From positions 4,770,480 to 4,834,479 of the forward strand of contig OZ004593.1 of NCBI GenBank assembly GCA_963924555.1: DNA of 64,000 nucleotides, written 5' to 3'. This document shows positions 141 through 64,000 of this stretch, in pieces. Positions within the stretch are counted from its first letter, which is position 1. Each line of letters begins with the position of its first letter. The position numbers and the translations under genes are program-made. The stretch is from Crambe crambe. Its lineage: Eukaryota > Porifera > Demospongiae > Poecilosclerida > Crambeidae. A model generated the notes under the pieces. It saw only the letters and a program-made list of their open reading frames with translations, made no database searches and was not told where the DNA came from.

Positions 141-2255
141 ATGGCACTGAAAGTATGGTTTCAATTGACGTGCCATCTCTTTCTGCCATTCCTGATTGGT
201 ATGTAAGTCTTCATGGTAATTTTTACAGTGCTTTACTAGCTAATAATTATGCTGCAATATATTCCTTCAGGTTCCTCCTCCACTGTGCATCAAGTGTATC
301 CTACTGAATACATCTTCACCACTGCCACCAATAATGTGTCAGACTTAGAGAATTGTACTAGTTATAAAAATCGTAGCGATTTCACAAGATGCCAGCATCC
401 TTCTGTACTGACTGATTCTCAGCAGTGTGACTCACAGCTTCTAGGGAAGAACAGCAACTCCATTGAAACTGTACAAAATGGACGAATCCTGTTCAGATTT
501 GCAATGATCACTAACATCACTTGTGTGGAATTCTGTTACCATGCAATGCAAGATCTACAAGACCCAACTGTAAGGTTCCTCAAAGTCGTTTATTATAATG
601 AAAGTGATGGATATGAACCTTGGAGAGCCCCTACTAGTAGTATGCCACAAGGATCTCACCGATTAGATTTTGATATATCCAGAACACATGATTTCAAAGC
701 CAGCATCAGTGCAAAAAATGTTGTGCTTTCCTTTACTATTCGTGGAAACTCAACATTGAGACTAAAGGAAGTGAAGTTTTATACTACAAGTCCTATTGTA
801 CCCACCACTCAGACCACTATCACCAGAACTTCTACTAGGTCTCAACCCACAACACCAAAAAGTTCCGCTGATCATCAACCCACAACACTTATTTCTACCG
901 AACGTTCAACTGGACCTCAGCCTACAGAACTTGTTACTACTGAAAATTTCACTAGACATCATCCTACGACACGTTCCACTGAATTCACAGCCACTGCAGG
1001 TTCTGCTCAACCCAAAAATCTTGTTACTACTGAAAGTTCTACTGGATCCATGGTTCCTCTTGTTATAGGAGTTGTGGCTGCAGCTGTGATCATACTGGCA
1101 GTCATATTGGGAGTTACTTGTTTAGTAGCAATAACTGTTCACAGAAGACATTCCAAAAATGTCTTCAAACTATTTCCAAAACAGACTGAAGAGTTGACGT
1201 TGGATTCCACAGAAAAGCTCGAACTCGCTGCAGTACATTCTGCTGATTCAATGCTTGAAATTGATAATCCTTACAATGCAAGTTTAGAAAATTCATCTCA
1301 ACATATCCAGAAGCATGATGATGATAAGCATGACCATAATTATAGTGTTATTGAGTCAAGTGGTGATGGTAATCCAGCATCTCTATATGCTTCAATTCCG
1401 GAAAAAGTCGAAACGAGGGAAGAAAGAAGTACATCTGAAGGCAGAGAAGATACCCATACTTACTCTGTAGTAAACAAGAAGCTCACTAAAGAGAACAAAT
1501 CACACACACCTGAAGGCCAAGATGATATCCATGTTTATTCAGTGGTAAACAAAAAGCTTGCAAAAGAGAAAGCCAATGAAGAAATGGATGAACAAGATGA
1601 AGCTTCAGTTCACAAAAAGATCGAGATATCAAAAGAGTTCCCCAGACCAGAAGGCCAAGACGATAGCCATGTTTATTCAGTGGTGAATAAAAAAGAACGA
1701 CAATCAACTAAGCAAAATGAAGCACCAAAAGAGTTGTGTACACCTGAAGGTCAAGATGATAGCCATATTTATTCTGTAGTGAAGAAGAAACTCACAAAAG
1801 AGAGAGTGAATGAAGAAATGGATGAGTCAATTGAAATTTCAGTCCAGAAGAAGACCAAAACACCAAAAGAGTTGGTGAAAAAGAAATTCACAAAAGAAAG
1901 CACGAAGGAAGAAACAGCTAAGCATAATAAAGCATCAGAGAAGAAGACCGAAATGCTGAAAGAGTTGTGTATGCCTGAAAGCAAAGATGAAAGCCATATT
2001 TATTCAGTGGTGAAGAAGAAGTTCACAAAAGAGAAAGAGACTTGTAATGAAGAAGCCAACACTCTATTATATGCTGTCACAGATAAGAAGAAAACAGCAG
2101 AAGCACCAGCTGATTTGGAAGAAAGCACACTTATAAGTCCAAGAGACCACACCCTTTTTACCAAGGAAAAAAGTCCCCAAATGTCTACTGATAATTGTGA
2201 AGAGGAAGTGACTATTGAAGATCAAAGCAATGGGAGTATCAGAATGGAAGTTTGA
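141..2255 (+). CDS. Receptor A1: ectodomain A, Thr-rich stalk, TM helix, long multi-tyrosine tail
   Basis: Two exons: 141-198 (signal peptide MALKVWFQLTCHLFL...) and 271-2255, joined in phase 1 across a 72-nt GT-AG intron; spliced length is 680 residues. The mature chain starts SSSTVHQVYPTEYIF and has about 170 residues with conserved Cys and N-glycosylation sites. It ends in LRLKEVKFYT, which is vaguely like a galactose-binding (discoidin-like) beta sandwich; that family guess is weak. A Thr/Ser/Pro-rich stalk leads to a helix at about residues 280-308 (PLVIGVVAAAVIILAV). The tail of about 370 residues holds eight YxxV/I/T sites: YSVI, YASI, YSVV five times and YAVT, set in a repeated unit rich in KKK...TPEGQDDSH. 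This is the longest intact member of family A. I do not recognise a named gene; a tyrosine-phosphorylated signalling receptor is inferred. Confidence 0.8.
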
Positions 2256-3844
2256 TCAACTAAGACTCGTGTGACCATGAAGAAATGTAGAATCAGTACT
2301 AGTCATAACAGCTACATGTTTGCAGTTATAATAAAAAAATTATTGATAAATCGTGAGGCTCAATAATTAGCTATTATCATAGGAAGTGATTCATAGATAA
2401 TTGGGTGAACCAAGTGATGTAGCTACATACATGTGATGAGGCCACAAATGTCACATGACAGATATTATATATAAGCATGCACAGATAAGGTCAAAGTTCA
2501 CTCTCTCTGTAGAGAACCCAAACTCTTCTATGAAGCCTGGGGGGCACAGGTACAAAATGCGTCACAAATGAGCATACCATTATGCAGTCTCATTAGGAGA
2601 AAGAGAAGATGCCACTTCAGCTCTCCATGACTCGTGATAAGTAGCATAATCTTGGCTAGCTACATAGAACACATTAGCTACAGAAGTTTCATCCAAGAAA
2701 GTCTGACTAATTTAATTATTGACTCTATATCACCTGGAATTGCTACATGATTTAACTGCGCCTTCAGGTGCTTTTTTAAGTTTTTCCTCCCAGAGAATTG
2801 AACCATTACACAAGGATTTTAGCTTCAACAATCACCACTCTCATGCTATTATACTTGAGTGAATATTCCATGTTTATTTTTTGTTTCTGTTGTTGTAGCT
2901 GTTCTTAATGGGTTTGGTTGCCAGTGTATGTCCAAGACTATAATGGACCAGGTTTCATTTTAGCTATCAAAATTAGTCAACCAACCAGTTAATCCAACCT
3001 CTAAATAGACACTAGATCCCTTGCTGTGCATGCACACACGAGGGGGTAGCTAATGAAAGTTCCACAATCATCACTCATGCCTATTAGTTGAGTGATTCCA
3101 TGTTGAGGGGTTTTTAAAATGTTTTTGTTATTACTTCTTAATGGGTTTTACGAGCTAGTAGCTATTATATGTGGCCAAGATATTATAATAAACTGCTCAT
3201 TCCCAAATAAGGCCTATACTAGATTAAGTTGATATAGCTAGTAAATATGTAGATTATAAGGATAACTATCATCAAGGTTTGGTTTTAGCTCTCCAAATGA
3301 GACCATCACGTTTCCTGATCCCTAAAAGTGTCCACATTGAGAGCCTTCATTATGTGGTTGTTTACTCCTTCATGAGGTTACAAGCTACGTATGTAGCTAT
3401 AGGACATGTAAATTATGCTGGCAGTTTTGGGCATAAATAAGTTGAAACAATTGTCACTTATTTCAAATTCTATAAGCACATAGCTATTTCATAAAAGGAC
3501 AGGGGTGACGTATAGTGAGTTTTAGTTTGTGCATGTCCCTAAAATTTCAACTTCAAGCACAGAATACGTATTTATGAATGATGCATTAAGATACAATAAC
3601 AATTCAACTGTTTCTGTTATTGTCTATGTACCCACCAACTCAATTAAGGCATTACGTAGGACCATAATTAGCCACTTTTCTGTAGCTAAGTAATCTAGAT
3701 AGATAGAGCAGCAAGCAAGATAGCTAACTATCTAGCTATTTTATTTCAGCAAGACTTCGATGGTTTACCATGTGCTAGCAAATTATATAATCAGCAGCTA
3801 AAGTATTTCAAAGCTTAAACAGGAATGTGCTTCTAATGTTGCTC
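2256..3844. repeat. A1-A2 spacer, duplicated again between A3 and A4
   Basis: No gene seen. The spacer matches 6600-7804 in long blocks, for example the stretch around 3300-3400 against 7290-7380, and 3590-3840 against 7550-7800 which is almost identical. It belongs to a duplicated unit of roughly 4 kb that carries the tail of one family-A gene and the 5' part of the next. The 250 bases before the start codon of A2 (3590-3844) are also conserved before A4, and in part before A7 and A9, so they probably hold the promoter of this branch. Confidence 0.6.
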
Positions 3845-5019
3845 ATGACACTGAAAGTCTGGTTTCAACTGTGCCTTCCTTTTCTGGTGTTTGATGTGGG
3901 TAAGTAAATTTTGCAGTTGGCTACTACTGGTCATTATGCTATAATATTCCTTCAGGTTCTCCCTCCACTGTGCATCAAGTGTATCCTACTGAATACATCT
4001 TCACCACTGCCACCAATAATGTGTCAGACATAGAGAATTGTGCTCCATATATGAGTCCTTCACCTTTTGCTTTCTTAAGATGCCAGCATCCTTCTGTACT
4101 GACTGATTCTCAGCAGTGTGACCCACAGCTTCTGAGGGAGAACAGCAACTCCATTGAAACTGTACAAAATGGACAAATCCTGTTCAGATTTGCAATGATC
4201 ACTAACATCACTTGTGTGGAATTCTGTTACCATGCGATTCAAGATCCACAAGATCCATATGCAAGGTCCCCCAAAGTCGCTTATTATAATGAAAGTGATG
4301 GATATGAACCTTGGCATAACCTTGGTACTCAACGAGATTCTCACAAAATAAATTATAGTACATCATTCAGAACAAGTACTTTCAATACCAGCATCACTGC
4401 AAGAAATTTAATACTTGCCTTCTATATTCATGGAAACTCAGTGTTGAGACTAATGGAAGTGAAGTTTTATACTACATGTCCTACTGTACCCAACACTCAG
4501 ATCACTTCTACCAGAAGTTCTACTAGGTCTCAACCCACTACTACTAATCGTCAACCCTCAACACTTACAACTACCAAAAGTTCAACTGGACCTCAGCCTA
4601 CAGAACTTGTTATTACTACAGCACTCCTTACTGAAGCTATTGGCTCTACTGGATGTAACCCCACATCATTCTTCACCACTAATAGTCCCATACCACAATC
4701 ATCCACTTCATCAACATCAACAACTTCATGTAATAACATAACAGCTGGAATCACTGGACTCACTGTTGCCATTTCCATCCTCCTCCTCCTCCTCCTCCTC
4801 CTTGTGATAGTGGCCATCACAGTCCTCATCAACAAGAAAATAAAACTAAGAATGATGACAATCGAACACCCTCAAAGAAATCCAGCTAAAGATGAGCAAG
4901 TTGAAGAGCCATCATCACTAGCCGGAAAAGAAGCAGTGACCACCTTCAATGTCACTGACAACTGTTGCTATGCTAGCACTGGTGTACCACTGTATGAAGT
5001 CATTCATCCTCCTAAATAA
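3845..5019 (+). CDS. Receptor A2: ectodomain A joined to short tail type 2
   Basis: Exons are 3845-3899 (MTLKVWFQLCLPFLVFDV signal peptide) and 3956-5019, phase 1, 56-nt intron, 372 residues. The ectodomain is very close to A1 and A4. After a Thr/Ser stalk, the helix (ITGLTVAISILLLLLLLLVIV) at about residues 282-308 and the roughly 64-residue tail are unlike A1. They match the cassette used by the C receptors (same LxVAxxxLLLL helix and RNPAKDE segment) and end in the NCCYAST...PLYEVI motif of family B. The gene is a chimera of ectodomain A with tail 2. A degenerate family-A helix and tail remain downstream at 5466-6599, as if displaced. Function is inferred: surface receptor with two candidate tail tyrosines. 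Confidence 0.8.
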
Positions 5020-5465
5020 GTCATGCTATCCACAATGTATGACTGGACAGGTTTGAAAATTTCTACCCCTGGGACTTCTAGCTACATATAATTATTATTC
5101 CTTCATTACTTTTTGTCAGTTTTAGCTTTTAATTATAAACTACCCAGTCCATTATGCATCAACAACCATCACTCATGTTAATGTGTAGTCGAGTGCTTGT
5201 TTTTATGTTTGCAAAGGGTTGTAGCTATTGCCAGTGTGTGCTGAACATTATAACTAATAGAACATATTTGACTGTACTACAATATTGTAGCTTTTGGGAG
5301 TTTAAACCAACCAGGTTCAACTTCTGAATAAATATCTGAAATGATTACTTAACCCCTTACTCTGTATGTATGCATGCGAAGGTAGCTAATGAAAGTTTGC
5401 TAGCCATCACTTATAAAAGACAACATTAGAGCGCTACTAAGTCCACAGATCTTACCACTAGCTAC
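5020..5465. other. 3' flank of A2
   Basis: No gene. Contains the conserved 3' flank of tail-2 cassettes (AATTTCTACCCCTGG near 5056), also seen at 12642, 25058, 36236 and 42102, followed by AT-rich sequence. Stalk remnants resembling the A6/A8 stalk (AGTCCACAGATCTTACCACT) appear near 5440-5465. Confidence 0.5.
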
Positions 5466-6599
5466 TGACTGGATCCATGGTTCCCCTTGTGATAGGAGTT
5501 GTGGCTGCAGCTGTGATCATACTGGCAGTCATATTGGGTTTAGTAATTATTATTATTTGCAGCATCAAACACCCTCCAAAACAGACTGGATAGTTGCAAG
5601 TGCAGAAAATTCATCTCAACATATCCAGAAGCATGATGATAAAAATGACCATAATTACAGTGTTATTGAGTCATGCACCACACCAAGTGGTGATGGTAAC
5701 CCAGCACCTCTATATGCCTCGATTCAGGAGAAAGGAAGGAAGCAGTACATCTGAAGGCAGAGAAGAAACAAGAAGCTCATTGAAGGCCAAGATGAAAGCC
5801 ATGTTTATTCAGTGGTGAATAAAAAGCTTAAAGACGAATCAGCTAAGCAAAGTGGAGCATATGAAGCACCACACACACCTGAAGCCAATGAAGAAATGGA
5901 TGAACAAGATGAAGCTTCAGTCCATAAAAAGATCAAGATATCAAAAGAGTTCCCCAGGCCAGAAGGCCAAGATGATTGCCATGTTTATTCAGTGGTGAAT
6001 AAAAGCTTCAAAAAGAAGGAGAATCAACTAAGCAAAATGAAGCATTTGAAGCACCAAAAGAGTTGCATACACCTAAAGGTCAAGATGATAGCCATGTTTA
6101 TTCTGTGGTGAAGAAGAAACTCACAAAAGAGAGAGCAAATGAAGAAATGGATGTGTCAATTGTCTAGAAGAAGACCAAAACACCAATAGAGTTGTGTACA
6201 CCTGAAGACCAAGATGGTAGCCATGTTTATTCAGTGGTGAAGAAGAAGTCCACAAAAAATAAAGAATAGATGAATCAACTAAGCATAACGAGCGTCTGCT
6301 GAAACACTGAAAGAGTTGCATACACCTGAAGGGCCATGTTTATTCAATGGTGAAGAAAAAGCTCACGAAAGAGAAAGAGACCTGTAATGAAGAAGCCAAC
6401 ATTCTATTATAATTATGCTAAGAAGAAAACAGCAGAAGCACCAGCTGATAAGGAAGAAAGCAAACTTAAAAGTCCAAGAGACCACACCCTTTTTATCATA
6501 ACCACTTCCAAGAAAAGTCCTCAAATATCTACTGATAATTGTGAAGAGGAAGTGACTATCGAAGATCAAGGCAAGCTTGACCAACTAAGACTCGTGTGA
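5466..6599 (+). pseudogene. A3: headless family-A helix and multi-tyrosine tail (relic)
   Basis: Begins inside the stalk and runs through a family-A helix (VPLVIGVVAAAVIILAVILG) into a stop at 5590. Tail pieces in shifting frames follow: YSVIES and YASIQEK near 5660-5730, then several HVYSVV units between 5800 and 6250, and the terminal KEKETCNEEA block near 6375-6410. No ectodomain or signal exon precedes it. Frameshifts and stops are present in every unit. It lies directly after A2, whose own tail is of another type, so it looks like the original tail left behind when A2 acquired its present one. Not expected to make protein. Confidence 0.75.
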
Positions 6600-7804: not shown

Positions 7805-9192
7805 ATGACACTGAAAGTCTGGTTTAAACTGTGCCTTCCTTTTCTGGTGTTTGATGTGGGTAAGTAAATTTTGCAGTTGGCTACTACTGGTCATTATGCT
7901 GTAATATTCCTTCAGGTTCTCCATCAAGTGTATCCTACTGAATACATCTTCACCACTGCCACCAATAATGTGTCAGACATAGAGAATTGTGCTCCATATA
8001 TGAGTCCTTCACCTTTTGCTTTCTTAAGATGCCAGCATCCTTCTGTACTGACTGATTCTCAGCAGTGTGACCCACAGCTTCTGAGGGAGAACAGCAACTC
8101 CATTGAAACTGTACAAAATGGACGAATCCTGTTCAGATTTGCAATGATCACTAACATCACTTGTGTGGAATTCTGTTACCATGCGATTCAAGATCCACAA
8201 GATCCATATCCAAGGTCCCCCAAAGTCGCTTATTATAATGAAAGTGATGGATATGAACCTTGGAGAGCCCCTACTAGTAGTATGTCACAAGAATCTCACC
8301 GATTAGATTTTGATATATCATCCAGAACACATGATTTCAATGCCAGCATCAGTGCAAAAATTGTTTTGCTTGTCTTCAATATTCATGAAAACTCAGTGTT
8401 GAGACTAATGGAAGTGAAGTTTTATACTACATGTCCTACCACTCAGACCACTTCTACCAGAAGTTCTACTAGGTCTCAACCCACAACACCAACAACTACT
8501 GAAAGTTCCACTGATCATACTGAAAATTCAACTGGATTAGTTACTAATTCCACTGAATCCACAACCACTGAAAACTCTACAGATCTAGCCACTATTGAAA
8601 GTTCCATAGGAGTTGGTGGTTGTAGCTGTGATCATACTGGCAGTCATATTGGCTTTAGTAATTATTATTATTCGCAGCATCAAACACCCTTCAAAACAGA
8701 CTGGAGAGTTGACGTTCGATTCCTCAGGAAAGCTCGAACTCACTGCAGTACATTCTGCTGATTCAATGTTTGAAATTGATAATTCTTACTATGCAAGTGC
8801 AGGAAATTCATCTCAACACATCCAGAAGCATAACAGTAATGAAAATGACCATAATTACAGTGTTATTGAGTCATGCACCCCACCAAGTGGTGATGGTAAC
8901 CCAGCACCTATATATGCCTCAATCGAGGAGAAAGTCAAGACAAGAGGAGGAAGCAGTACATCTGAAGGCAGAGAAGATACCCATACTTACTCTGTGGTGG
9001 ACGAGAAACTCATTAAGGAGAACAAATCACATGTCACACACCTGAAGGCCAAGATGAAAGCCATGTTTATTCAGTGGTGAGAGAAGAAACAGATAAATCA
9101 ACTAAGCAAAATGAAGCACCGAAAGAGCTGTGCACACCTGATGAAAGCCATGTTTACTCAGTGGTGAATAAGACATCAAGGCAATGGGAGTA
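7805..9192 (+). pseudogene. A4: frameshifted family-A receptor
   Basis: Signal exon 7805-7859 is intact (MTLKVWFKLCLPFLVFDV). The second exon starts at 7915 but lacks 11 nt found in A2 (CTCCACTGTGC), which throws the canonical splice product into a stop after about 27 residues. The rest of the ectodomain is open in another frame to about 8600. A second shift falls at the helix: the frame from 8613 carries VIILAVILALVIIII and the tail with YSVI, YASI and YSVV. A third shift comes near 9030 in the following tail unit. Otherwise nearly identical to A2 over the ectodomain and to A6/A8 over the tail. A recent duplicate that has decayed, unless the indels are assembly errors. Confidence 0.75.
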
Positions 9193-9805: not shown

Positions 9806-9897
<92 letters not shown>

Positions 9898-10444: not shown

Positions 10445-11923
10445 ATGAAATTGTGCTGCTTATTCTTGTTGGTTCTGCTTCTTGAGGAAGGTAAGTGTGC
10501 GACTAGCTACACTAAAAATGTTTAATATCAAGGTTTGATTTCCAATAATAATTATTGCTACTCTTCAGGTTCTCCCTCCACTATGCATCAAGTGTATCCT
10601 ACTGAATACATCTTCACCACTGGCACCAATAATTTATCTGAATTGGAGAATTGTACTATTTATCGTAGCAATTTCACCAGATGCCAGCATCCTTCTGGAT
10701 TGACTAATTCTCGGCAATGTCCCCCACGGTTTTTCAGTGAGTACAACAAGAACTCCATTAAAGCTGTACACGAAGGACAAATCCTGTTCAGATTTGCACT
10801 GCCCACTAACCTCACCAGTATGGAATTCTGTTATCATGGTGTACCAGTTCCATATCATGTACTTACATCCTTGATTTCATTTCAACTTTGTGATTCTCAG
10901 TATACCCCACCATTTTTTAATTATTATACTGTATTACATTTTGGTCACTGGCACAGAACATATGACTTTTATGACAGCATCATTACTAGAAATATAGTGC
11001 TTTTGTTCAATATTCCTGGAAACTCCACCTTGAGACTATTCGAAGTGAAGTTTTATGGTACAGAAGGGAACTTTTCTACATCATTGACCACTGAATCCAC
11101 AGCCACTACAGGCTCCACTAGACCAATAGATCTTGCCACTACTGAAAATTTTACTAGATCATCCATTGTGATAGGAGTTATGGCTGCAGCTGTGATCATA
11201 CTGACAGCAATATTGGGAGTTACTTGTTTAGTAGCGATGGTCAATCACAGAAGACATTCCAAATGTATCTTCAAACACTCTTCAAAACAATCGACATTAG
11301 ATTCCACGGAAGAGATTAAACTTACTGCAATACGGTATATTGACCCTATGCTTGAGAGCAATAGTTCTTACTATGCAGCAAGTGAAGGAAATCCATCTCA
11401 AAACCTCCAGAAGCATGATAACATAAATTTCAATGAGAGTGACCATAATTACTACAGTGTGATTGAGTCAGCCACCACGTGTACACCAAGTGGTGATGGT
11501 AATCAAGCATCTTTATATGCCTCAATTCAAGAGAAAGCAGGAAGTACATCTGAAGATACCCATACTTACTCTGTGGTGAACACTAGGAAAGAAGATAGTG
11601 GTGATATGTTGCAAGAAGTAATAGGTGACAAGTGCATGTCCAGCAGTGACACCTATGCCTCAGTCCAGGAGAACGAATCACACGTACAAGACGATAGCCA
11701 TGTTTATTCGGTGGTGAAGAAGAAGCTTGTAAAAGAGAAAGAGACTTGTAATGAAGAAGCCAACACTCTAACACCGTTGTATGCTGTTGTGGATAAGAGG
11801 AAAGAACCTGCTGTTTTGGAAGAAAGTCTGACTAAAGTGAATGATAATCGTGAAGAGGAAGTAGCTATTGAAGATCAAGGCAATGGGTGTATCAGAATGG
11901 AAATGAAGAAAATACTTGTGTGA
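10445..11923 (+). CDS. Receptor A5: diverged family-A receptor with medium tyrosine tail
   Basis: Exons 10445-10490 (MKLCCLFLLVLLLEEG signal peptide) and 10569-11923, phase 1, 78-nt intron, 466 residues. The ectodomain keeps the MHQVYPTEYIFTT start and the LRLFEVKFYG end. It differs much more in the middle than the other copies do from each other, with a distinct loop around SLISFQLCDSQYTPP. The stalk is short. The helix is at about residues 213-240 (VIGVMAAAVIILTAILGV). The tail of about 225 residues has YYSVI, YASI, YSVV, YASV, YSVV and YAVV. The signal peptide type (CCLF...LLLEEG) matches A6 and A8, not A1/A2. All frames are intact, so this is a good candidate for an active, older member. 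Confidence 0.82.
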
Positions 11924-13634
11924 CCATAAAGAATCTAGTAGTAGCTGAGAATACAAGTTTACAGTTAGCTGTTTTTATATATTATTGTGTTATCTACACA
12001 GACTTATGTTATTATGGCACCATTTGCCACAACCAAATGAGCTCACACACTAATCAAGTCAGTGGGAGGCCATACTTGTGTGTGGTAGCTACTATGGTGG
12101 GTACAGATGTGCTTGGATGCCAACTTGAAGGTCAAACTTCTGTAGCAGCAAAACCTCACAAGTCACTCCACCAGCCAGTAGCAAAGATTCAGGAACTGGT
12201 TGAGTATAGCTAGAGCATTGATTATGAAAGAGGACCAGCTACATTATCAGTCTCTATGAATCCTGGGAAACTTCACTTGAACAACTAGCATATGTACCAT
12301 ATAGTTATGGTGATCCCTTTAGGAGCTACTTTATAATTTATTTAAGCTCTCCATAATCATTTTTTAAAAAACTGTCTAGATTCATCACTGTAGTAACCCA
12401 TTAGAAGTAGCAACGAAAAATGGAAGAAACTGAAGTCAGACAACAATAACACAACAACTTTACTCATCCATTTATGAGCTAGCACCTATGTATGATGCCC
12501 TTGTGATAACGCATCATAGTCCTCTTCCACAAGAAAGAAGGACAATGACATATCTCCCTCAAAGAAATTCAGCCAATGACGAGCCAGTTGAAGAACTATC
12601 ACCATCTGTAATGGAGTGAACGCTTGTTGTAGACTGCTTTGAAAATTTCTACCCCTGGAACTGCTACATGTACATTATTCCTTCGTTACTTCGTACTTTA
12701 TCTTTTTTCTTCTTCTGAGTTTTAGCTTTTACCCCAGTCCAACAAACATTACATAACTCACATTAATGTATATATTGTAGAGTGCTTGTTTTTAAGACTA
12801 CTATGTCGTCTAGCCATTCTTCCACTCTATACCCTTTCTACCTGATTGGCACCTGTGCTGGGCATGGGCCCACCCCCACAATCAATGCCCCCTTAATTGT
12901 AGTTGTTTCACCCTATCCTGTTTTATGTGAGACATGCTGGGTGAATATCCCCACTGACTTGGTCCTAAAAAGACCACAAGCCTTGCTAGACTAGGAAGTG
13001 GGCAAATTTTCAGCTCTGCTATAGTAACGCTTGCCTTCTGCTTCTCAGACTGACTACTGCTCGAGTATCACCCATAGTTGCTGCATAACTATGTGCCTGC
13101 TCAGCTGTTTAACCTGAGTATTGCTTGTTGTTTGGGAGTGTGTTCTTTTGTTACCTTCTTTTTCCAGCATGTCTCACTCATAAGCAGGCATAAAACAGGA
13201 TGGGGCGGGAGAGGTGCAGAAAAATTAATGTCTATAGGAAAGTTTTTTCTTGGTTTGTTGAGAAACTTTCCATAATCATCAGGTTTTTGGACTAGTGGAT
13301 TCATATAATGTGTCATGCCATTGGCCTCATACCCAGGCCTTTTGCAAAAGGAAGGGATATAATAATGGGTCATTAATAATTATTTTGATCACAATTTTGG
13401 CAAAGATTTCCCCATGCAAACTAAAATCTCACCAGCCTAGTCACCCAAGAGTTCTTCTCTACCATTGGGTACAACAGGCTTTTCAGAGATGGAGTTAACA
13501 AAAGAACAACAACTAGTTACTATGAGTGGACCCAGTATAGACAGAAGCTACCTATATTATATGCATAGCTAGCTGCAACACAATGAAATAAATAATTTAT
13601 AGCTATGCACATTGAATGTATTCTATAGTATATC
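11924..13634. other. Intergenic with relic of tail-2 cassette and its 3' flank
   Basis: No intact gene. About 12545-12620 encodes a damaged RNSANDEPVEE segment like the tails at 24970 and 36110. It is followed by the same 3' flank (TTTCTACCCCTGG) and by a block at 12830-13060 (ATTGGCACCTGTGCTGGGCA ... AAAAGACCACAAGCCTTGCT) repeated at 36410-36670 and partly at 25230-25260. This marks a lost receptor whose ectodomain is gone. The last stretch (13100-13634) shows nothing recognisable. Confidence 0.55.
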
Positions 13635-20390: not shown

Positions 20391-20394
20391 TCAC

Positions 20395-39478: not shown

Positions 39479-39592
39479 GTGTGTACGTGTACGTGTACAA
39501 TTTCCCCTCGGCCTCCCCCGGCCCCTTTCGTGCGCGCGCGAGAGCCTGGGGACGGACGTGACGAGGCAAACCACGTCTACGATAGATAATCC

Positions 39593-50428: not shown

Positions 50429-51343
50429 TTTATTGAAGACTCGTGTGACCATAACAAAATGTAGAATCAATTCAACACTCATACTAATAATTATAATACA
50501 GTGATTTTTTTGTTGTTGTTGTTGCTGCAGTCGTTCTTGTTATTGTTATTGTTCTTAATCGGGTGGTATATATAACTTGTTGCCAGTAGCTATGTACTCA
50601 TACCTATTTAGTTGAGTAATTCCACGTTGGTTTTTCTACATTTTTGTTACTACTTCTTAATGGGTTTTATGAGCTATGTGACCAAGACATTAGTATATTG
50701 GTAGTTAATAGTAGCGTCATTCCCAAATAAGGCCTGGATACAAGGTTAAGTTGATAGGTCAACAAAAAATGTAGTAGCTTTAAATATAATAGTCCTGTGT
50801 GACTAGGTGTCACAGAAATAACAATAGCAAGATATATCATCGAAGTTTGGTCATTATGATAAGGATACCTCTCCAAATGAGACACTTTTCCTGATCCCCT
50901 GAAGTGTACACATTGAGAACTTTCATTATAACTAATTATGGTTGAAAAAATATAGTTTACTCCTTCACTTCTATAACAATAATTAGCTACAACATATACA
51001 CATAAACCTTGACCATGATCATGTATTCATGTGGTCACAACTCACAAGCTATAGGACAACATGCAAATTATGCTGGCATAGTTTGGGAATAATAGGTCTC
51101 TCTTTGGTGATACTGCCAGATGCTGGAGAGTTCCTCACGAGGCTCACTTAGAACATCCCTAGAACATCAACTTCAAGCACAGTGCATTTATGAATGATGC
51201 ATTAAGATACAAATTCAACTGTTTCTTATTACTGCTTGAATTTTTATACCCACCAATACAATTGAGGCATTTACGTAGGTCCATAATTAGCAACTTTTCT
51301 GTAGCCAAGTGACCTCATCAGTGGCTACCATGTGATATTCCTT
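50429..51343. other. A8-A9 spacer
   Basis: No gene. Homologous in blocks to 44816-46330 and to the A1-A2 spacer, ending in the A-branch 5' flank (GTCCATAATTAGCAACTTTT near 51280). No signal exon is recognisable before A9. Confidence 0.5.
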
Positions 51344-51942
51344 CAGGTTCCTCCTCCACTGTGCATCAAGTGTATCCTACTGAATACATCTTCACCACTG
51401 CCACCAATAATGTGTCAGACTTGGAGAATTGTACTATTTATAAATTTCATAAGATGCCAGCATCCTTCTGTACTGACTGATTCTTAGCAGTGTGACCCAC
51501 AGCTTCCGAGGGAGAACAGCAACTCCATTGAAACTGTACAAAATGGACGAATCCTGTTCAGATTTGCAATGACCACTAATATCACTTGTGTGGAATTCTG
51601 TTATTATGCAATGCAAGATCCACAAGATCCACCAGAGTCACTTAGCTATTATTTTAATGAAAGTGATGGATATGAACCTTGGAGATCCTTTAGTAATATA
51701 CAAGAGTCTAATGGATTGGCACATCATCCAGAACACATGATTTCCATGTCAGCATCAGTGGAAAAAATTTGTGCTTGCTTTCAATATTCGTGGAAACTCA
51801 ACATTGTGACTGTATGAAGTTATTCACTTTCCAGACTCCGTTGCTGAACAAATAACCACAATGGAATCCAGTGAACTCTTCAACTCTGATACATTAATAG
51901 TCGATAACAGTTGTACTGAAATGTACAGTTGTACTGTGTGAA
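51344..51942 (+). pseudogene. A9: broken ectodomain A fused to the end of a family-B tail
   Basis: Exon-2-like start at 51346 (TTCCTCCTCCACTGTGCATC) with no signal exon. A deletion near 51440 and CAG-to-TAG at 51483-51485 break the ectodomain. The sequence runs to NIRGNST-like residues near 51800. After AACATTGTGACT it switches abruptly to GTATGAAGTTATTCACTTTC, the last part of a family-B tail, matching 62770-62890 closely (ATGGAATCCAGTGAACTCTT in both). Stalk, helix and most of the tail are missing. A dead hybrid that marks the A/B boundary of the cluster. Confidence 0.72.
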
Positions 51943-52161: not shown

Positions 52162-53104
52162 ATGTCCAGCTTCTTTGCCGAAGTCATGTTCAAGAGCTTC
52201 CTCACCTTTGCACTTCACACTCACAGTGGACAAAGTAAGAGATTTATGCTAGCTATAGATGTTTTGATAGTAGCTGCAGTAACTATCCTAATTATTATGT
52301 AGGTTCACCTGTGTGCAATAATAAAGTGGAGGTCACAGCTCAGTTTCCAACAGTGCAGCCATCAACTTGACACTCAGTGGTTCAAATATCATAAAGACTA
52401 TACCATTGGAGTTTAGAGTTATCAATGATAATATTAGTATCACACTAAATGGAAGTGAACGAAATTTCACTCTGAATGGAAATCTTTTGGAACTGAACCT
52501 AACCTTGGAGTGCATCTCATCACTACAGGCAAGTATTGCGCCAAATGAAAATGAAGAAACATTTTTAATTGAAACTCTGGACATAAGTGAGTTCACTCAA
52601 TTATTGTTACGCATCTTGTCTCTCCTAATTACAGACACAACTTATAGATTCAATGGAGGTGGAACCACAAGTACAACAGACATTAGCAGTACTTCAAGTA
52701 AAACTGCTTCATCAACCACTGCTTCAACTTCAACTACATCACCTACTACTTCTTCCACCACCACCACATCACCAACTGCTTCAAATATAACAGGTTTCAT
52801 CATTGGAGTTACTGTTGCCATCTCCTTCCTACTCCTTCTTCTTCTTGTGATTATTATATTCCTCATAATTGGTGCAATTAAGAGGAAACTTGCTCAGTCT
52901 CCTCAAACAGTTAAGGATGGATCAGAACAAGAATCGGAACCCAACTATGAAGACATACCATCACCCACCAGAGAAGAAGAAACTGCCTTCGATTTCACTG
53001 ACAACTGTTGCTATGCCGGTGCAGGTGTCCCATTGTATGATGTTATCCACTCTCCAGACTCTGTTGATAAACAAACAGCCACAATGGAATTGATACAATC
53101 TTAA
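52162..53104 (+). pseudogene. B1: family-B receptor with deletion in the ectodomain
   Basis: Signal exon 52162-52234 (MSSFFAEVMFKSFLTFALHT). Exon 2 starts at 52303 (SPVCNNKVEVTAQ), then lacks about 100 nt present in B2, B4 and B5, giving TGA at 52368-52370. From 52367 the rest is open in the family frame: LEFRVINDNISITLNGSERN, a 48-nt GT-AG intron (52589-52636), a Thr/Ser stalk, helix ISFLLLLLLVIIIFLIIGAI and tail 2 with NYEDIPSP and PLYDVIHSP. Nearly identical to B4 outside the deletion. No translation past the signal region is expected. Confidence 0.72.
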
Positions 53105-53852: not shown

Positions 53853-56800
53853 ATGTCCAGCTTCTTTGTCAAAGTCCTGTTCAAGAGCTTCCTCATCCTT
53901 TCACTTCACAGTCACAGTGGACAAAGTAAGAGATTTGTGCTAGCTATAGCTGTTTTTAATTGGCGAGTGAAGCGAGCCACTCTCTGGTCATGTCAACGGG
54001 AGCTCGAGATATATTTATATGTAGTTAGAACACGGTACACAGCGAAAAATCTACAACTTGTAACAGGTCTGGACTGCCCCACATACCAGTTATGACCTGT
54101 ACACAGGTCTGTAACAGGTCAGTAAAATCTACAAGTCTGTAACAGGTCCGTATTTTTGGACTGTATCAGACCTGCTGCCCCACCAACTGCCTACAGATCA
54201 AAAATTAGTACTTCCGGTGCCTAGGGTTAATTACGGATTTTTGTTCTGTTACATACCTGTTACAAAATGCTTACAAGTTGTAGATTTTTCGCTGTGTAGT
54301 CTGATGATTATGGCCAATAAACAACCGAATCCGAGGGCGCAGCCCGAGGATAAGGTTGTTTATTTGGCCATAATCACCAGGACTACCGTGTTCTAACTGT
54401 TATTATATCCCCAGGGCGCACGATTTCATTGGTCGGTCTGTAGTTTTAGCTAGCTAGCTACCCCCTTAGTTACGAAACAAAACGAAAACTCCTGCCGTGG
54501 CTTGTCCCTGTCCTGGGATAGTATAGTCTGGCGTAGCCAGCCCCAGGCACTTCCGGAACTCCAGCGCAAGGCAACGTCATTTTACGACACTAAAACGTCA
54601 TATTACGTAATAAAAAATTTAGGCCGGGAACAAGTCGAAGTATTGTGTGTTACCAGACCCTTACGCTGGAGTTCCGGAAGTGCTTGGGGCTGGCTGCGCC
54701 AGACTACTTGATAACCTGACAACTTGATCACTTTTGCTGGTGCTGGTCGTAGAAAGTTTGTAGCTGAGTAGCTGATTCCCTCAGGATACACGATACACGA
54801 GTACGATGCTAAACTAATGCGTTTTAGGTCTTTTCTAATCCTGGCACTGAAAGCCTGGCCTCAGGAGGCTATCACAAAACCTCCCTTTTGCGCAATATCA
54901 ATAGAATCGGTGTCTCCTTCCAATAGAATCGGTGCCTCCTTCCTTAATTAATAATACGCATGCGCACGTTCGTTTGACCTTTGACCCCACAAATGAAACA
55001 TGCCCATAGCACTTAGAACAAACAGCTTGAGCTTATTGTTTTCTACAGCATTTTGTCATAGAGGTGCTAAGTGGATTGTAGGCGCTTGGCTTTCTAAGTG
55101 CTTGTGGTAAGCATTATACAGCCTCCTATGTATGCAGCTGCAATATCTTAGTAAGTCAAAGTACAAATGACATTCACCAACTGCTTCGCTCGCCGATTGA
55201 ATATGTTACACGAACATTATGTCATACCCTAGTTAGTTGATAGTCTTAACACCATAATGTAGGTTCACCTGTGTGCAACAATGAAGTGAATATAACAGCT
55301 CAGTACTACAGTGATGTAGGCTACACAACAAGGAATATTATATGCATGCTAAAAGAATCCAATATTATCAAATGCAACTTCAATAAGGAGCTTGGTTTTA
55401 ATGCTTCCAACAGTGCAGCCATCAACTTAACACTCAGTGGTTCGAAGACTATACCATTGGAGTTTAGAGTTATCAATGATAGTATTGGCATCACACTAAA
55501 TGGAAATGAACAATATTTCAACCTAACTGAAAGGGTTTTGGAATTAAATCGAACCTTGGAGTGCATCTCATCACTACAGGCAAGTATCGTGTTAGATGAA
55601 AATGAAGGATCATTTTTAATTGAAACTCTGGACATAAGTGAGTTACTCAATTTTAATATAGTATTGTTATGCATCCTGTCTCTTCTAATTACAGGTAGAA
55701 TTGATGGACATGGAACCACGAGTACAATAGACATTAGTAGTACTTCGACTAAAACTGCTTCATCAACCACTGCTTCAACTTCAACTACATCACCTACTAC
55801 TTCATCCACCACCACCACATCACCAACTGCTTCAAATATAACAGGTGTCATCATTGGAGCTACTGTTGCCATCTCCTTCCTCCTCCTGCTCATCATAGTG
55901 GTAGTCTTAATCCTAATAGCCACGATCCTCCGAAGAAAAAAGTCCCATTTCTTTGACCATGGACCCTTCACAACCTCCAATAGAGAAGACAATAACTATG
56001 AGACCATTAACACACTGCCACACCCCATGATACCTGCATTTGAAATGGGTAGCCGCTATAATGATGGAAGCACGAGAAACCTGAGCATGGCGAGCTTTGA
56101 TATGTCATCCAGAAATAACCACCTCAATCCTCAAAACGACTTACCTCTCCCTCCAGTCGAGTCTGATTTCGCTACCATTGAAGAATGGAGGAGATATGAA
56201 GCAGAAAACGATCCCATTCCTAACCCCTTTTATGCTACGACGTCTGCTTTCTCATCTAGCACTGGAAGTGCGCTCATAGAAGAACCGAATTATGAGATTA
56301 TCCAAGAAGCCAAGCAAAGATTCGCATCACAAATAGGTGGAAGTCTGCATCACGCCTTTGACATACATCAAATCCAAGACCCTCATCATATGGCACAGTC
56401 ACTTCATGACATACACACAACGATACATCCAACAAAGCTACCTTGGACTGGCTCTGTGAATAGAGTCAATAGAAATATGGCCACTAAGAAAATTCATCCA
56501 CCACACTTCCATCGCAACGAGATGGATTTTGGACCACACTCCAATGTATCTCCCCTCACAAAGAGTTTAATGGCGAACCATCTCATCACTGACCAAAAAT
56601 CAGCAATGGAGGCAAATGGTGAGATGGAGGATCAAAGTCCTGGTGCCATCAAGAATGATTTTTACGTGACTACTTCTGAACTGGAGCCGGAGTATTTCAC
56701 ACTTATAGATGATTCGCATGTGGTATCATGTGTGGAGGAACCTTCTGCTGAACCAGAAAGCACTACACCCCAAAGAGCAGGTGAGGAATCAACGGACAGC

Positions 56801-57259
56801 ATATCTGCACCTGATGACAGTGACCCCATTTATAGTGAGGTCAAGAAAACAAGATCCAAAGAAGACTTGGTAAGTGCAGAAGAGCATGATACTACTACTG
56901 AAGAAGGCAGCCATATTGGTGATCTTCCTCCTCCACCATTTAAGTACGAGGAAGGAGAACTAATAGAAGTAAATAGAATGTCCGATAACGAAACGAGAGA
57001 AAGAGTTGAACTTGGACAAGAAAAGAAAGAAAGAAACGATAAAATACAACCTCAATCCTCTCAAACTGAGCATGACAACGAGGAACACCTCAACAATACA
57101 GACACCTCTCCTCCAGACAGACATGTCGAACCCTCGCTTCTCCCCTCGGCTATGAATGTTGATGATAAGCCTCCACATGATGAGAAAAAAACAACACAAA
57201 ACAGGGAACAGCCGAAACTCTTGGGAAATGTGATAGAGGAATTTGGTAAAGAAAACTAG
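53853..57259 (+). CDS. Receptor B2: family-B ectodomain with a unique 445-residue tail (type 3)
   Basis: Exons 53853-53925 (MSSFFVKVLFKSFLILSLHS signal peptide), 55263-55637 and 55695-57259, all phase 1; 670 residues. The ectodomain of about 125 residues begins SSPVCNNEVNITAQYYSD and has several N-glycosylation sites, with no family recognised. A stalk of TTSPTTSSTTTTSPTASN and a helix ISFLLLLIIVVVLILIATIL at about residues 200-226 follow. The tail differs wholly from the other B genes: acidic, Pro/Ser-rich, with YETI, YEII, YFTL and YSEV sites that fit SH2 or endocytic motifs, plus a PPPPFKYEEGE stretch. Intron 1 is 1,337 nt because of a nest of transposons (53960-55235); in B4 it is 83 nt. 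The intron lengths (57 nt for intron 2) keep frame even if retained. Confidence 0.82.
54038..54296. mobile_element. Element B: 259-bp MITE inside element A
   Basis: Perfect 26-bp inverted ends (CACAGCGAAAAATCTACAAC...) at 54038-54063 and 54271-54296, flanked by TA on both sides (54036-54037, 54297-54298). It interrupts the left arm of element A just after AGTTAGAACACGGTA. The uninterrupted complement, GACTACCGTGTTCTAACT, is in the right arm at 54381-54398. Tc1/mariner-type by its TA duplication. Confidence 0.85.
54524..54706. mobile_element. 183-bp inverted-repeat element
   Basis: Arms of about 50 bp: TAGTCTGGCGTAGCCAGCCC with CAGGCACTTCCGGAACTCCA on the left, and the complement TGGAGTTCCGGAAGTGC and GCGCCAGACTA on the right. 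The GGCGTAGCCAGCC core also occurs in the palindrome at 20430-20455, so it is a dispersed family. Confidence 0.7.
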
Positions 57260-58602: not shown

Positions 58603-59674
58603 ATGAACATATCCAGCTTCTTTGCCAAAGTCCTGTTCAACAGCTTCCTCATCTTTTCACTTCACACTCACAGTGGACAAAGTAAGAGATTTGTGCTAGT
58701 TATAGCTGTTTTAGTTAGTTGATAGTAGCTGCAGTAACTATGATCTTAACACCATATTATGTAGGTTCACCTGTGTGCAATAATGAAGTGGAGGTCACAG
58801 CTCAGTACTGCAATGATGGAGGCAACACAATGAGAAATATTACATGCATGCTACAATCTGAATCCAATATTATCAAGTGTAACTTCAATAAGGAGCTTGG
58901 CTTTGATGCTTCCAACAGTGCAGCCATCAACTTGACACTCAGTGGTTCAAATATCACAAAGACTATACCATTGGAGTTTAGAGTTATCAATGATAATATT
59001 AGCATCACACTAAATGGAAGTGAACGAAATTTCACTCTGAATGGAAATGCTTTGGATCTGAACCAAACCTTGGAGTGCATCTCATCGCTACAGTTAAGTA
59101 TTGTGCCAGAAAATGAAGAAAGATTTTCAATTGAAGCTCTGTACATAAGTGAGTTCACTCAATTATTATTTTATTGTCATGCATCTTGTCTCTCCTGATT
59201 ACAGACACAACTTATAGAATCAATAATGGTGGAACCACAAGTACAACAGACATTAGCAGTACTTCAAGTAAAACTGCTTCATCAACCACTGCTTCAACTT
59301 CAACTACATCACCTACTACTTCCTCCACCACCACCACATCGCCAACTGCTTCAAATATAACAGGTGTCATCATTGGAGTTACTGTTGCCATCTCCTTCCT
59401 ACTCCTTCTTCTTCTTGTGATTATTATATTCCTCATAATTGGTGCAATTAAGAGGAAACTTGCTCAGTCTCCTCAAACAGTTAAGGATGGATCAGAACAA
59501 GAATCGGAACCCAACTATGAAGACATACCATCACCCACCAGAGAAGAAGAAACTGCCTTCGATTTCACTGACAACTGTTGCTATGCCGGTGCAGGCGTTC
59601 CATTGTATGATGTTATCCACTCTCCAGACTCTGTTGATAAACAAACAGCCACAATGGAATCGATACAATCTTAA
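58603..59674 (+). CDS. Receptor B4: family-B ectodomain with tail type 2
   Basis: Exons 58603-58681, 58765-59148 and 59205-59674, phase 1, 310 residues. The usual start ATG TCC is ATA TCC here; the in-frame ATG AAC two codons earlier (58603) is taken as the start, giving MNISSFFAKVLFNSFLIFSL. The ectodomain has SSPVCNNEVEVTAQYCNDGG and ends before a 56-nt intron. Since 56 is not a multiple of 3, splicing is required. A stalk of Thr/Ser-Pro, helix ISFLLLLLLVIIIFLIIGAI at about 208-235, and a roughly 75-residue tail with NYEDIPSPTREEE, NCCYAGAGVPLYDVI and a truncated end ESIQS follow. Tyrosine sites: YEDI and YDVI. Intact as spliced; recognition or adhesion receptor inferred. Confidence 0.78.
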
Positions 59675-60234: not shown

Positions 60235-61323
60235 ATGAACATGTCCAGCTTCTTTGTCAAAGTCCTATTCAAGAGCTTCCTCATCCTTTCACTTCACAGT
60301 CACAGTGGACAAAGTAAGAGATTTGTGCAAGCTATAGCTGTTTTTAATTAGTTGATAGTCTTAACACCATATTATGTAGGTTCACCTGTGTGCAACAATG
60401 AAGTGAATATAACAGCTCAGTACTACAGTGATGTAGGCTACACAACAAGGAATATTATATGCATGCTGGAATCCAATATTATCAAATGCAACTTCAATAA
60501 GGAGCTTGGTTTTGATGCTTCCAACAGTGCAGCCATCAACTTAACACTCAGTGGTTCAAAGACTATACCATTGGAGTTTAGAGTTATCAATGATAGTATT
60601 GGCATCACACTAAATGGAAGTGAACAATATTTCAACCTAACTGAAAGGGTTTTGGAATTAAATCAAACCTTGGAGTGCATCTCATCACTACAGGCAAGTA
60701 TTGTGTTAAATGAAAATGAAGGATCATTTTTAATTGGAACTCTGGACATAAGTGAGTTACTCAATTATAATATAGTATTGTTATGCATCCTGTCTCTTTT
60801 AATTACAGGTAGAATTGATGGACATGGAACCACGAGTACGACAGACATTAGCAGTACTTCAACTAAAACTGCTTCATCAACCACTGCTTCAATTTCAACT
60901 ACATCACCTACTGCTTCATCCACCACCACCACATCACCAACTGCTTCAAATATAACAGGTGCCATCATTGGAGCAACTGTTACTATTTCTTTCCTCCTCC
61001 TTCTTCTTCTTGTGATTATATTCCTCATTGGTGTAATTAAGAGGAAACTTGCTCAGTCTCCTCAAACAGTTAAGGATGGATCAGAACAAGAATCAGAACC
61101 CAACTATGAAGACATACCATCACCCACCAGAGAAAAAGAAACTGCCTTCAATTTCACTGACAACTGTTGCTATGCCGGTGCAGGTGTTCCATTGTATGAT
61201 GTCATCCACTCTCCAGACTCTGTTGATAAACAAACGACCACAATGGAATCCAAAAACTTTGATACATTAACAGTCGATCTTAACAGTTGTGCTAAAGATC
61301 TTGAGCATGAAGGAAGTGCTTAA
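60235..61323 (+). CDS. Receptor B5: family-B ectodomain with full-length tail type 2
   Basis: Exons 60235-60313, 60380-60751 and 60809-61323, phase 1, 321 residues. Start MNMSSFFVKVLFKSFLILSL has two possible Met codons (60235, 60241). The ectodomain is almost the same as in B2 (NNEVNITAQYYSDVGYTT), while the helix and tail follow B4 (FLLLLLLVIIFLIGVIKRK, NYEDIPSP, NCCYAGAGVPLYDVI). It continues into the longer C-terminus NFDTL...LNSCAKDLEHEGSA. So B2 and B5 share an ectodomain but have different tails. Intron 2 is 57 nt. Helix at about residues 200-225. Complete and the best reference for family B. Confidence 0.82.
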
Positions 61324-61913: not shown

Positions 61914-62911
61914 TGTAGCTTCTTTGCCAAAGTCATGCTTCCTCATCTTTTCACTTCACACACACAGTGGACAATGTAAGAGATTTGTGATGTCTTTAGC
62001 TAGCTGCATGATAGTAGCTGCAGTAACTATGATCTTAACACCATATTATGTAGGTTCACCTGTGTGCAATAATGAAGTGGAGGTCACAGCTCAGTACTAC
62101 AATGATGGAGGTATGCAGTACCATGAGAAATTTTATATCATGCATTCCAACAACTAGCTACAGGATTTGAATCCAATATCAGGTGTAATATCAAGGACCT
62201 TGTCTTTGGTGCTTCCAACAGTGCAATCATCAACTTGACACTTAGTGGTTCAAACATCACAAAGACTGGAGTTTACAATAAATGGAACAATATTTCACTC
62301 TGAATGGAAGTGAATCAAACTTTGGAGTGCATCTCATCATTACAGGTAAATATAGTGCCAGATGAAGAAAATTCTCAATTGAAACTCTTGACATAAGTGA
62401 GTTTACTCAATTATTATAGTATTGTCATGCATCCTGTCTCTTGATTACAGACACAACTTATAGAATCAATGGAGGTGGAACAATAGACATTAGCAGTACT
62501 TCAACTAATACTGCTTCAAGTATAACAGGTGCCATCATTAGAGCCACTGTCACCATTTCTTTCCTCCTCCTTCTTCTTGTGACTATATTCCTCACTGGTA
62601 TACTCAATAAGGAAAAATTGCCCAGTCTCTTCAAACAATCAATCCAGTTAAAGATGGATCAGAGCAAGAATCAGAACCCAACTATGAAGAAATATACCAT
62701 CACCCACCAGAGAAAAAGAAGAAACATCTTTCAATTTCACTGATAACTGTTGCTATGCTGGTGCAGGTGTTCCATTGTATGAAGTTATTCATTCTCCAGA
62801 CTCTGTTGCTGAACAAACAACCACAATGGAATCCAGTGAACTCTTCAACTCTGATACATTAACAGTCGATAACAGTTGTACTGAAGACCTCAATCATGCA
62901 GGAAATGCTTG
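61914..62911 (+). pseudogene. B6: degenerate family-B copy
   Basis: The signal exon is damaged (GAAGATGTAGCTTCTTTGCC puts TAG after ATG, with a further deletion). Exon 2 begins at 62055 (SPVCNNEVEVTAQYYNDGG) and soon shifts. Several deletions shorten the ectodomain between 62150 and 62390. The stalk is nearly gone (SSTSTNTASS); the helix TISFLLLLLVTIFL near 62545 is present. The tail is frameshifted near 62690 but still shows the NCCYAGAG...PLYEVIHSP codons and an extended end (SSELFNSDTLTVDN) shared with A9. Dead copy and the likely donor or sister of the A9 tail. Confidence 0.75.
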
Positions 62912-63085
62912 AATGAAGTGAACATAACTATAGAACATTGTCGAACTTGCACTTTTGGGTTATTATAATAAGACTTGCTTTTCATATATATAATAATAAG
63001 GTTCATTGAAATTTCCAACATCATAACTACTTTTCTCTGTGAGTGGTACTACCTAGCTAGATAGTTACGTATATGCAGCCTGAAG

Positions 63086-64000
63086 ATGTCCAGCTTCTTC
63101 ACCAAAGTCATGTTCAAGAGCTTCCTCATCTTTTCACTTCACAGTCACAGTGGACAAAGTAAGAGATTTATGCTAGCTATAGATGTTTTAGTTAGTTGAT
63201 AGTACCTGCAGTAACTATGATCTTAACATGATATTATGTAAGCTCACCTGTGTGCAATAATGAAGTGGAGGTCACAGCTCAGTACTACAGTGATGTAGAC
63301 AACATAACAGATGTAATATCAAGGACCTTGTCTTTGATGCTTTCAACAGTGCAGCCATCAATTTGACACTTAGTAGTTCAAATATCATAAAGACTATACC
63401 ATTGGAGTTTAGAGTTATCAATGATAATAATTATTAGCATTACACTAAATGGAAGTGAATACAATATTTCACTCTGAATGGAAATCCTTTGGAACTGAAC
63501 CAAACCTTGGAGTGTATCTCATCATTACAGGCAAGTATTGTGCCAAATGAAAATGAACTCTGGACATAAGTGAGTTTACTCAATCATTACTCAAATTATA
63601 GAGATGGAACCACTAGTACAACAGATATTAGCAGTACTTCAACTAAAACTGCTTCATCAACCACTGCTTCAACTTCAACTACATCACCTACTGCTTCATC
63701 AACCAACACCACATCACCAACTGCTTCAAATATAACAGGTGTCATAATTGGAGCCTCTGTCGTCATTTCTTTCCTCTTCTTTCTTCTTCTTGTGATTATA
63801 TTCCTCATTGGTGTAATTAAGAGGAAACTTGCTCAGTCTCCTCAAATAGTTAAGGATGGATCAGAACAAGAATCAGAACCCAACTATGAAGACATACCAT
63901 CACCCACCAGAGAAAAAGAGACTGCCTTCAATTCACTGACAACTGTTGCTGTGCCAGTGCAGGTGTTTCATTGTATGATGCTATCCACTCTCCAGACTCT
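63086..64000 (+). pseudogene. B7: family-B copy with lost splice acceptor, runs off the window
   Basis: Signal exon 63086-63158 is intact (MSSFFTKVMFKSFLIFSLHS). The acceptor before exon 2 reads ATGTAAGCTC instead of ATGTAGGTTC: the AG at 63239-63240 has become AA, with a new AG one base later that would shift the frame. Deletions follow at 63300 and 63430. Stalk and helix (VVISFLFFLLLVIIFLIG) are open in one frame from about 63600, and the tail loses one base near 63931 (TTCAATTCACTG for TTCAATTTCACTG). Remaining tail codons reach the window end. Confidence 0.72.

Follow-up and report, generated by a model that had tools for sequence, protein, structure and literature searches.

Modular receptors with exchanged tails and a captured collagen module in a gene cluster of the sponge Crambe crambe

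The window analysed here is a stretch of 64,000 nucleotides from the demosponge Crambe crambe (contig OZ004593.1, hereafter C16, positions 4770480-4834479), taken from one haploid assembly of 143 Mb in 119 contigs. It holds a cluster of genes and gene remnants for modular receptors, which fall into three families, A, B and C, according to their ectodomains. Copies are named by position, with B6 to B9 lying beyond the window end. The window contains eight copies of A, six of B and two of C, of which three, two and one, respectively, are open (6/16), that is, they read from the ATG of the signal peptide via the membrane helix to the stop (A1, A2, A4, B1, B3 and C2). Beyond the window end, B6 (672 amino acids, aa) and B9 (700 aa) are likewise open. 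The other 10 of the 16 window copies (A3, A5, A6, A7, A8, B0, B2, B4, B5 and C1) are broken or lack helix and tail, in agreement with the many dead copies reported in a preceding interpretation of the bare letters (the sequence-only reading). The copies and the remnants between them are:

141..2255 (+): A1, open, 680 aa; signal exon 141-198, main exon 271-2255; ectodomain A, stalk, helix and tail-1
3845..5019 (+): A2, open, 372 aa; signal exon 3845-3899, main exon 3956-5019; ectodomain A with tail-2
5434..6599 (+): broken tail-1 downstream of A2
7805..9080 (+): A3, broken, with tail-1
10445..11923 (+): A4, open, 466 aa; signal exon 10445-10490, main exon 10569-11923; diverged ectodomain A with tail-1
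12499..12794 (+): orphan tail-2 remnant with 3' flank
23205..25024 (+): C1, collagen-like 5' exons, A-type stalk and tail-2-type helix, with a TAG within exon 24552-24719
32404..36179 (+): C2, design as in C1, open, 400 aa; its first exon (32404-32408) has only five bases; placed through a match of 15 bases, it is uncertain
41995..42196 (+): orphan tail-2 end with 3' flank, 78% identical to A2
42609..44815 (+): A5, broken, with tail-1
46331..47022 (+): A6, open frame of 213 aa; ectodomain A without helix or tail
48476..50428 (+): A7, frame break near 48690, with tail-1
51335..51866 (+): A8, ectodomain A, broken, with a tail-2-like fragment of 19 residues behind it (51810-51866)
52162..53104 (+): B0, broken ectodomain B with tail-2
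53853..57259 (+): B1, open, 689 aa; signal exon 53853-53925, main exon 55263-57259; ectodomain B with the long tail
58603..59674 (+): B2, ectodomain B with tail-2, frame break near 59198
60241..61323 (+): B3, open, 338 aa; signal exon 60241-60313, main exon 60380-61323; ectodomain almost that of B1, with tail-2
62050..62831 (+): B4, ectodomain B and tail-2, broken
63086..64000 (+): B5, ectodomain B and tail-2, broken, continuing beyond the window end

In the A and B models a single phase-1 intron lies 3' of the signal peptide and the remainder is intronless, as the sequence-only reading had described; the C model departs from this scheme with five exons, the stalk, helix and tail all being encoded on the last one. 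The three ectodomains are mutually dissimilar, as had also been claimed, with no relation detected by profile comparison (hhalign probability 0.1-0.4%). Pfam returned no family for ectodomains A or B at an E-value (E) of 1 or below, and the searches made for ectodomain B found no relative outside family B.

Tail exchange is directly visible in family B. The ectodomains of B1 and B3 are 97.9% identical at the DNA level and their tails are unlike. The similarity stops at about 55890, inside the membrane helix, and past this point B1 groups with B6 and B9, which carry the long tail (found on these three genes only in a genome search), and B3 groups with B0, B2, B5 and B7, which carry tail-2. An ectodomain tree of nine of the ten known B copies (B4 was left out) joins B1 and B3 (support 100/100), and a clade of the long-tailed B1, B6 and B9 is rejected (approximately unbiased test, AU, p=0.000417). 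B7 presents the reverse case, as its tail is 96.7% identical to that of B3 but its ectodomain only 72.1%. Ectodomain and tail histories conflict in family B; the congruent trees that the sequence-only reading had named as its refutation were not obtained. As a separate observation, a collapsed B remnant lies directly 3' of B1 at 57606-57906 (+), with signal-exon-like DNA adjoining a tail-2 end; its bases 57818-57900 are 100% identical to 63939-64021.

A2 likewise combines an ectodomain shared with a close relative, A3, with a different tail. The two copies are 91.7% identical over 848 columns (3700-4541). Further along, A2 matches the 3' end of C2 (4716-4946, 76%) and the orphan tail-2 with 3' flank at 41995-42196 (4933-5148, 78%), and from 5434, downstream of A2, the match to tail-1 resumes at 77-97% depending on the copy, this tail-1 being broken. 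We read this arrangement as a tail-2 end that was apparently inserted, together with its flank, before the old tail-1. The tail-2 segments of A2 and of B are related, scoring 49.7 bits with the cytosolic part alone, whereas 300 shuffles gave no more than 20.4, and both contain NCCYA...PLY[DE]VI. The proposal that A2, B and C share related helix and tail-2 segments is borne out for the tail-2 of A2 and B; PLY[DE]VI as a common element is ruled out for C1 and C2, whose tails stop after RNPAK and contain no NCCYA...PLY[DE]VI.

Ectodomain C shares 76-82% protein identity with the N-terminal module encoded by a collagen gene (C16:441-450 kb), and the candidate of a new ectodomain was rejected in favor of this collagen module. 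After the third genomic copy of the module, C3 (C16:449486-450070, minus strand), come 36 runs of Gly-X-Y (GXY) triplets on that strand, each of at least 5 triplets and together amounting to at least 952 residues in 7.7 kb. A count by eye puts 22 of the 36 runs at a length of 18 residues (54 bases), and 54 bases is the exon size of fibrillar collagens; one GXY exon matches Pfam Collagen (3.8e-22). The DNA of C1 and C2 matches the collagen gene at 77-90% in exons and introns alike and switches to A-type sequence inside the last intron, beyond which 51-70 bases of stalk share 94-97% identity with A3, A5 and A7, and the helix region shares 74-76% with A2. C1 and C2 are chimeras in which a duplicated collagen N-terminal module is joined to an A-type stalk and helix; the collagen was presumably the donor rather than the recipient. 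In the source gene the triple helix comes next after the homologous module, whereas in C1 and C2 a stalk, a helix and a short tail replace it. Since the synonymous divergence (dS) of C2-C3 (0.134) and C1-C3 (0.195) is below that of A1-A4 (0.37), the duplication is fairly recent. For ectodomain C, Pfam gave only Laminin_G_3 with E 0.23, below the cut-off, and the C2 ectodomain had no significant match among PDB sequences (best E 0.09). Going by its position, we provisionally label the module TSPN-like. TSPN modules are found in collagen N-propeptides (PMC5120351). About 500 bases after C1, at 25532-25575 (+), lies a remnant of an A signal exon with 95% identity to A7.

The conflict of the B trees and the DNA-level mosaics A2, C1 and C2 bear out the earlier claim that tails have been exchanged between unrelated ectodomains. 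High-identity tandem copies are a general risk in genome assembly, and collapsed or misjoined copies could produce chimeras of this kind. We regard such an artefact as very improbable, as the divergence of the segments is uneven (74-97%), one design is common to both C chimeras and the long tail occurs on three genes.

Tail-1 is rich in tyrosine motifs of the YxxPhi type, which take up 7/9 tyrosines in A1 (p=0.00013) and 7/10 in A4 (p=0.00082); in the long tail of B1 the figure is 4/9 (p=0.046). A pattern resembling an immunoreceptor tyrosine-based activation motif (ITAM) occurs once among A1, A2, A4, B1 and B3, in A1. Ratios of nonsynonymous to synonymous divergence (dN/dS), calculated for 6 of 8 A copies and 6 of 10 B copies, were 0.34-0.39 for the B long tail (3/3 pairs), 0.14-0.49 for tail-2 (6/6 pairs) and 0.38-1.05 for tail-1 (10 pairs, with 0.38 for A1-A4), compared with 0.92-3.23 for ectodomain A (15 pairs). 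From these ranges, the tails are more constrained than the ectodomains. This bears on whether the cluster reflects mostly neutral churn, in which unequal crossing-over makes accidental chimeras, most copies decay and shared tails merely record ancestry and gene conversion. The ten broken or tailless copies and a dN/dS near 1 in most ectodomain-A pairs would fit such an origin; nevertheless, we think it quite unlikely in view of the purifying selection on the long tail and on tail-1 of A1-A4 and of the eight open genes, counting B6 and B9.

Tail-1 has relatives elsewhere in the genome. It is homologous to tails on contigs C8, C20 and C5 (hhalign E 4.4e-11 with all of them together and 9.9e-9 to 7.8e-7 with subsets, against 0.36 for a reversed control). 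The profile of the C8 tails scored 77.7; 3 of 100 full-column shuffles reached about 133, the one inspected being an artefact of 12 columns at the end, and with core columns only the maximum was 18.3 in 60 shuffles. With one C8 tail as query, 29 stretches were found, exclusively on C8 and C20. The region C8:4.15-5.74 Mb contains a tandem receptor family with tail-1-like tails. No A or A-like ectodomain was seen on C8 and C5 among the matches listed, and a family scan of six C8, C20 and C5 stretches gave one sub-threshold fn3 domain and nothing else convincing.

Ectodomain A is confined to the window cluster at high identity only, and a wider restriction was rejected, as distant relatives are many. 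At least 151 stretches match with E<=1 (150 of 188 candidates were scored, and some genes yield several stretches), mainly at C16:5.4-6.1 Mb, C16:2.94-3.0 Mb and C21:0.88-0.95 Mb. In end-to-end profile comparison, A scored 31.3 against the A-like family when locus L012 was added to A (maximum of 40 shuffles 9.1) and 18.1 without L012; in local comparison, one subset scored 35.5 against a maximum of 20.8 in 60 shuffles. The joint alignment of A and its relatives retains an invariant P, Y, two C, F, V and F. With moderate support for the link, A appears to be a diverged offshoot of a far larger family of ectodomains in the same genome. The sequence-only reading had proposed three unrelated and undescribed ectodomains; B is the one for which no relative was found, C being the collagen module and A apparently belonging to this larger family.

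The A-like relatives sit on other multi-tyrosine tails, including tails with repeated YAQV, of which 30/31 considered lie within 600 bp of an A-like ectodomain. In one A-like receptor with LYAQV/LYAHV tail repeats (L082:207-2480, C16:2.985 Mb), 16/17 tyrosines are YxxPhi (p=1.5e-13). At L045 an A-like ectodomain is spliced in frame to a tyrosine kinase across a 52-bp intron. The case of L086 is weaker, with several possible splice choices and a kinase match that is cut by the locus end and falls under the Pfam cut-off. The region C16:5.42-6.05 Mb holds 25 plus-strand tyrosine-kinase stretches of one subfamily among A-like ectodomains. Positions were compared using 94 plus-strand C16 rows among the A-like matches listed (at most 150), 25/29 kinase rows and 31/40 tail rows, minus-strand, other-contig and fragment rows being dropped. 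An A-like ectodomain lies at most 6 kb upstream of 19/25 of these kinase stretches, against 14.7 for random positions, and within 2.5 kb of 12, against 7.2 (maximum 15 in 1000 draws). Position therefore proves nothing about a kinase link, and the evidence for one is the in-frame splice at L045. The window genes themselves gave no kinase match (Pfam E<=1 in window positions 240-2252 and 55250-57256; E<=0.01 for C2). By eye, a glycosylphosphatidylinositol (GPI)-type end is perhaps present near L012.

These relatives raise the question of whether the cluster and its distant kin on the same contig form a sponge recognition supergene, in which recombination loads changing ectodomains, including the captured collagen module, onto shared outputs. 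Such outputs could comprise YxxPhi tails, a tyrosine kinase and perhaps tailless or GPI-like ends. We consider this doubtful; if true, it would represent the membrane-receptor arm of self/non-self or symbiont recognition in sponges.

The predicted structure of ectodomain A from A1 is all-beta and weak (predicted local distance difference test, pLDDT, 52.6; predicted template modeling score, pTM, 0.51), and 0/851 structure matches reached E<=0.001, the best being Eph and DDR1 domains. The model of an A relative, L013, built on its alignment with 11 further sequences, A1 and L012 among them, is usable (pLDDT 74.4, pTM 0.77) and gave 27/1788 matches at E<=0.001, including CBM6, CBM32, CBM35 and the DDR1 DS-like domain (TM 0.61/0.62), which we take to share a galactose-binding-like fold. 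L013 is modelled as a galactose-binding-like jelly roll, and its homology to A is moderate. DDR1 is a collagen receptor. Jelly-roll and collagen-derived ectodomains might bind glycans or matrix, so that the proteins would be adhesion or matrix receptors whose tails tune adhesion rather than immunity. The collagen module of family C and the resemblance of the A relative to CBM and DDR1 domains are consistent with such a role. On the other hand, tandem copies, many of them broken, together with tail swapping would be less expected of housekeeping adhesion genes, and we judge this role unlikely.

Overall, the receptors are modular, they have exchanged tails at the DNA level and captured a collagen module, and their tails are constrained. 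We consider that they probably form a birth-and-death cluster of single-pass type I receptors assembled from exchangeable blocks and act as output-diversified recognition receptors resembling paired receptors. The blocks would be the signal-peptide exon, the ectodomain, a Ser/Thr-rich stalk with the helix, and one of three tails (tail-1, tail-2 or the B long tail). As the DNA shows, recombination in stalk or helix sequence has placed near-identical ectodomains on different tails, in B1/B3 and A2 versus A3, and has joined the duplicated collagen module to the A-type stalk and helix. The ectodomain may bind a ligand, SH2 proteins may be recruited to the tail tyrosines upon their phosphorylation, and exchanging the tail would, by analogy with paired receptors, alter the response to the same ligand. 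The most likely role is cell-surface recognition of a microbe, a symbiont or a conspecific.

Several results weigh against this assignment. With ten of the 16 copies in the window broken or lacking a tail, decay may account for some of the mosaicism. Enrichment of YxxPhi is not significant in tail-2 (B3 2/3, A2 1/2 tyrosines), and canonical immunoreceptor tyrosine-based inhibitory motifs (ITIMs) are rare by pattern count, with one each in A1 and A4 and none in A2, B1 and B3. Some tail-1 pairs have a dN/dS of 0.90-1.05, and ectodomain B ranges from 0.40 to 1.12 (15 pairs). Positive selection on the ectodomains is not demonstrated by dN/dS, as just 1/15 ectodomain-A pairs exceeds 1 at p<0.05 (A2-A3, p=0.018 uncorrected) and A3 is itself broken. 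The core observation of the sequence-only reading is confirmed with the corrections given above, and its interpretation is partly supported, namely in the exchange of tails between unrelated ectodomains.

Comparable arrangements are known from vertebrate paired receptors. Siglec-11 and Siglec-16 have similar ectodomains on opposing tails, maintained through gene conversion (PMC5701461), and the paired receptors CEACAM1/CEACAM3 and CD300A/C also have near-identical ectodomains on different tails. The likeness lies in B1/B3. In contrast to paired receptors, ectodomains A and B contain no immunoglobulin (Ig) domain at the Pfam threshold used, and one tail type here also occurs on unrelated ectodomains. 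We do not class the sponge receptors as paired receptors, for which opposing outputs and a shared ligand would be required, nor as Alr or FcoR, whose Ig-type ectodomain was not found among the domains scanned.

The fuhc locus of Botryllus (the fester family and FcoR) resembles the cluster in its grouped type I receptors with YxxI/L/V tail motifs, and uncle fester has the 3' exons of fester and not its 5' half (PMC12065747). However, the Botryllus ectodomains consist of Ig and sushi domains, whereas here A may be jelly-roll-like and C is collagen-derived, and polymorphism is shown for fuhc, whereas the sponge cluster is seen in a single assembly. The Hydractinia Alr family is similar in that its candidate recognition receptors form a cluster and have tails of the ITIM/ITAM type (PMC12065747, PMC11999971); the Ig-type ectodomain of Alr and FcoR has no Pfam counterpart in A or B. 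Ectodomain shuffling has been described among holozoan receptor tyrosine kinases (PMC8662651), which L045 resembles with its A-like ectodomain on a tyrosine kinase, whereas the window genes have no kinase domain in the frames scanned and their tails would be substrates at most. Other candidate sponge recognition gene sets are the aggregation factors (PMC5450542) and SRCR expansions (PMC10855680), from which the cluster differs in that the window ectodomains scanned gave no SRCR or Calx-beta match. A sponge graft transcriptome study reported that aggregation-factor adhesion genes were not enriched (PMC5450542).

A narrower form of the recognition-receptor interpretation is a sponge allorecognition (histocompatibility) locus, with ectodomains and gene content differing between individuals and deciding fusion or rejection. 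Clustered, fast-changing and tail-swapped receptors would suit it, Botryllus FcoR and the Hydractinia candidates likewise have ITIM-type or YxxI/L/V tails (PMC12065747), and sponge graft specificity has been ascribed to a polymorphic genetic system (PMC5450542). Yet the ectodomain dN/dS is near 1, leaving positive selection unproven, and receptors for microbes or symbionts would have the same appearance; a histocompatibility locus seems improbable to us.

In the partial literature collection searched, we recognised no account of this receptor system. The best-known receptors that keep the sensor and change the output are those of vertebrates, tunicates and cnidarians, with Ig-type ectodomains. 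If unrelated ectodomains share a pool of tails in a sponge cluster, this logic would be independent of Ig domains, and it would be of great age or have arisen by convergence. In the C genes a membrane receptor arose by capture of a collagen module, and a likely relative of the source still lies on the same contig. The named loci would allow direct tests of graft rejection and microbe recognition in sponges.

A cathepsin-like active-site motif was read in seven short stretches, as CGSC in five, CVAG in one and CGSSYAF in one (L096); we take the serine-for-cysteine motif CGSSYAF as a mark of silicatein, a hint at a siliceous sponge and no proof. Further features lie in the window. Exons of one or more receptor-like genes at 13635-19900 (-) include a sushi domain (E 3.4e-10), weak fn3 and, by eye, Ig-like stretches. 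A frame at 28651-29910 (+) with a P-element/THAP-type transposase domain (TNP-like RNaseH N, E 1.1e-23) marks a mobile element inside the cluster. Also within the receptor cluster, an open frame of 278 aa at 39590-40426 (+) encodes a TIR domain (TIR_2, E 1.9e-15).

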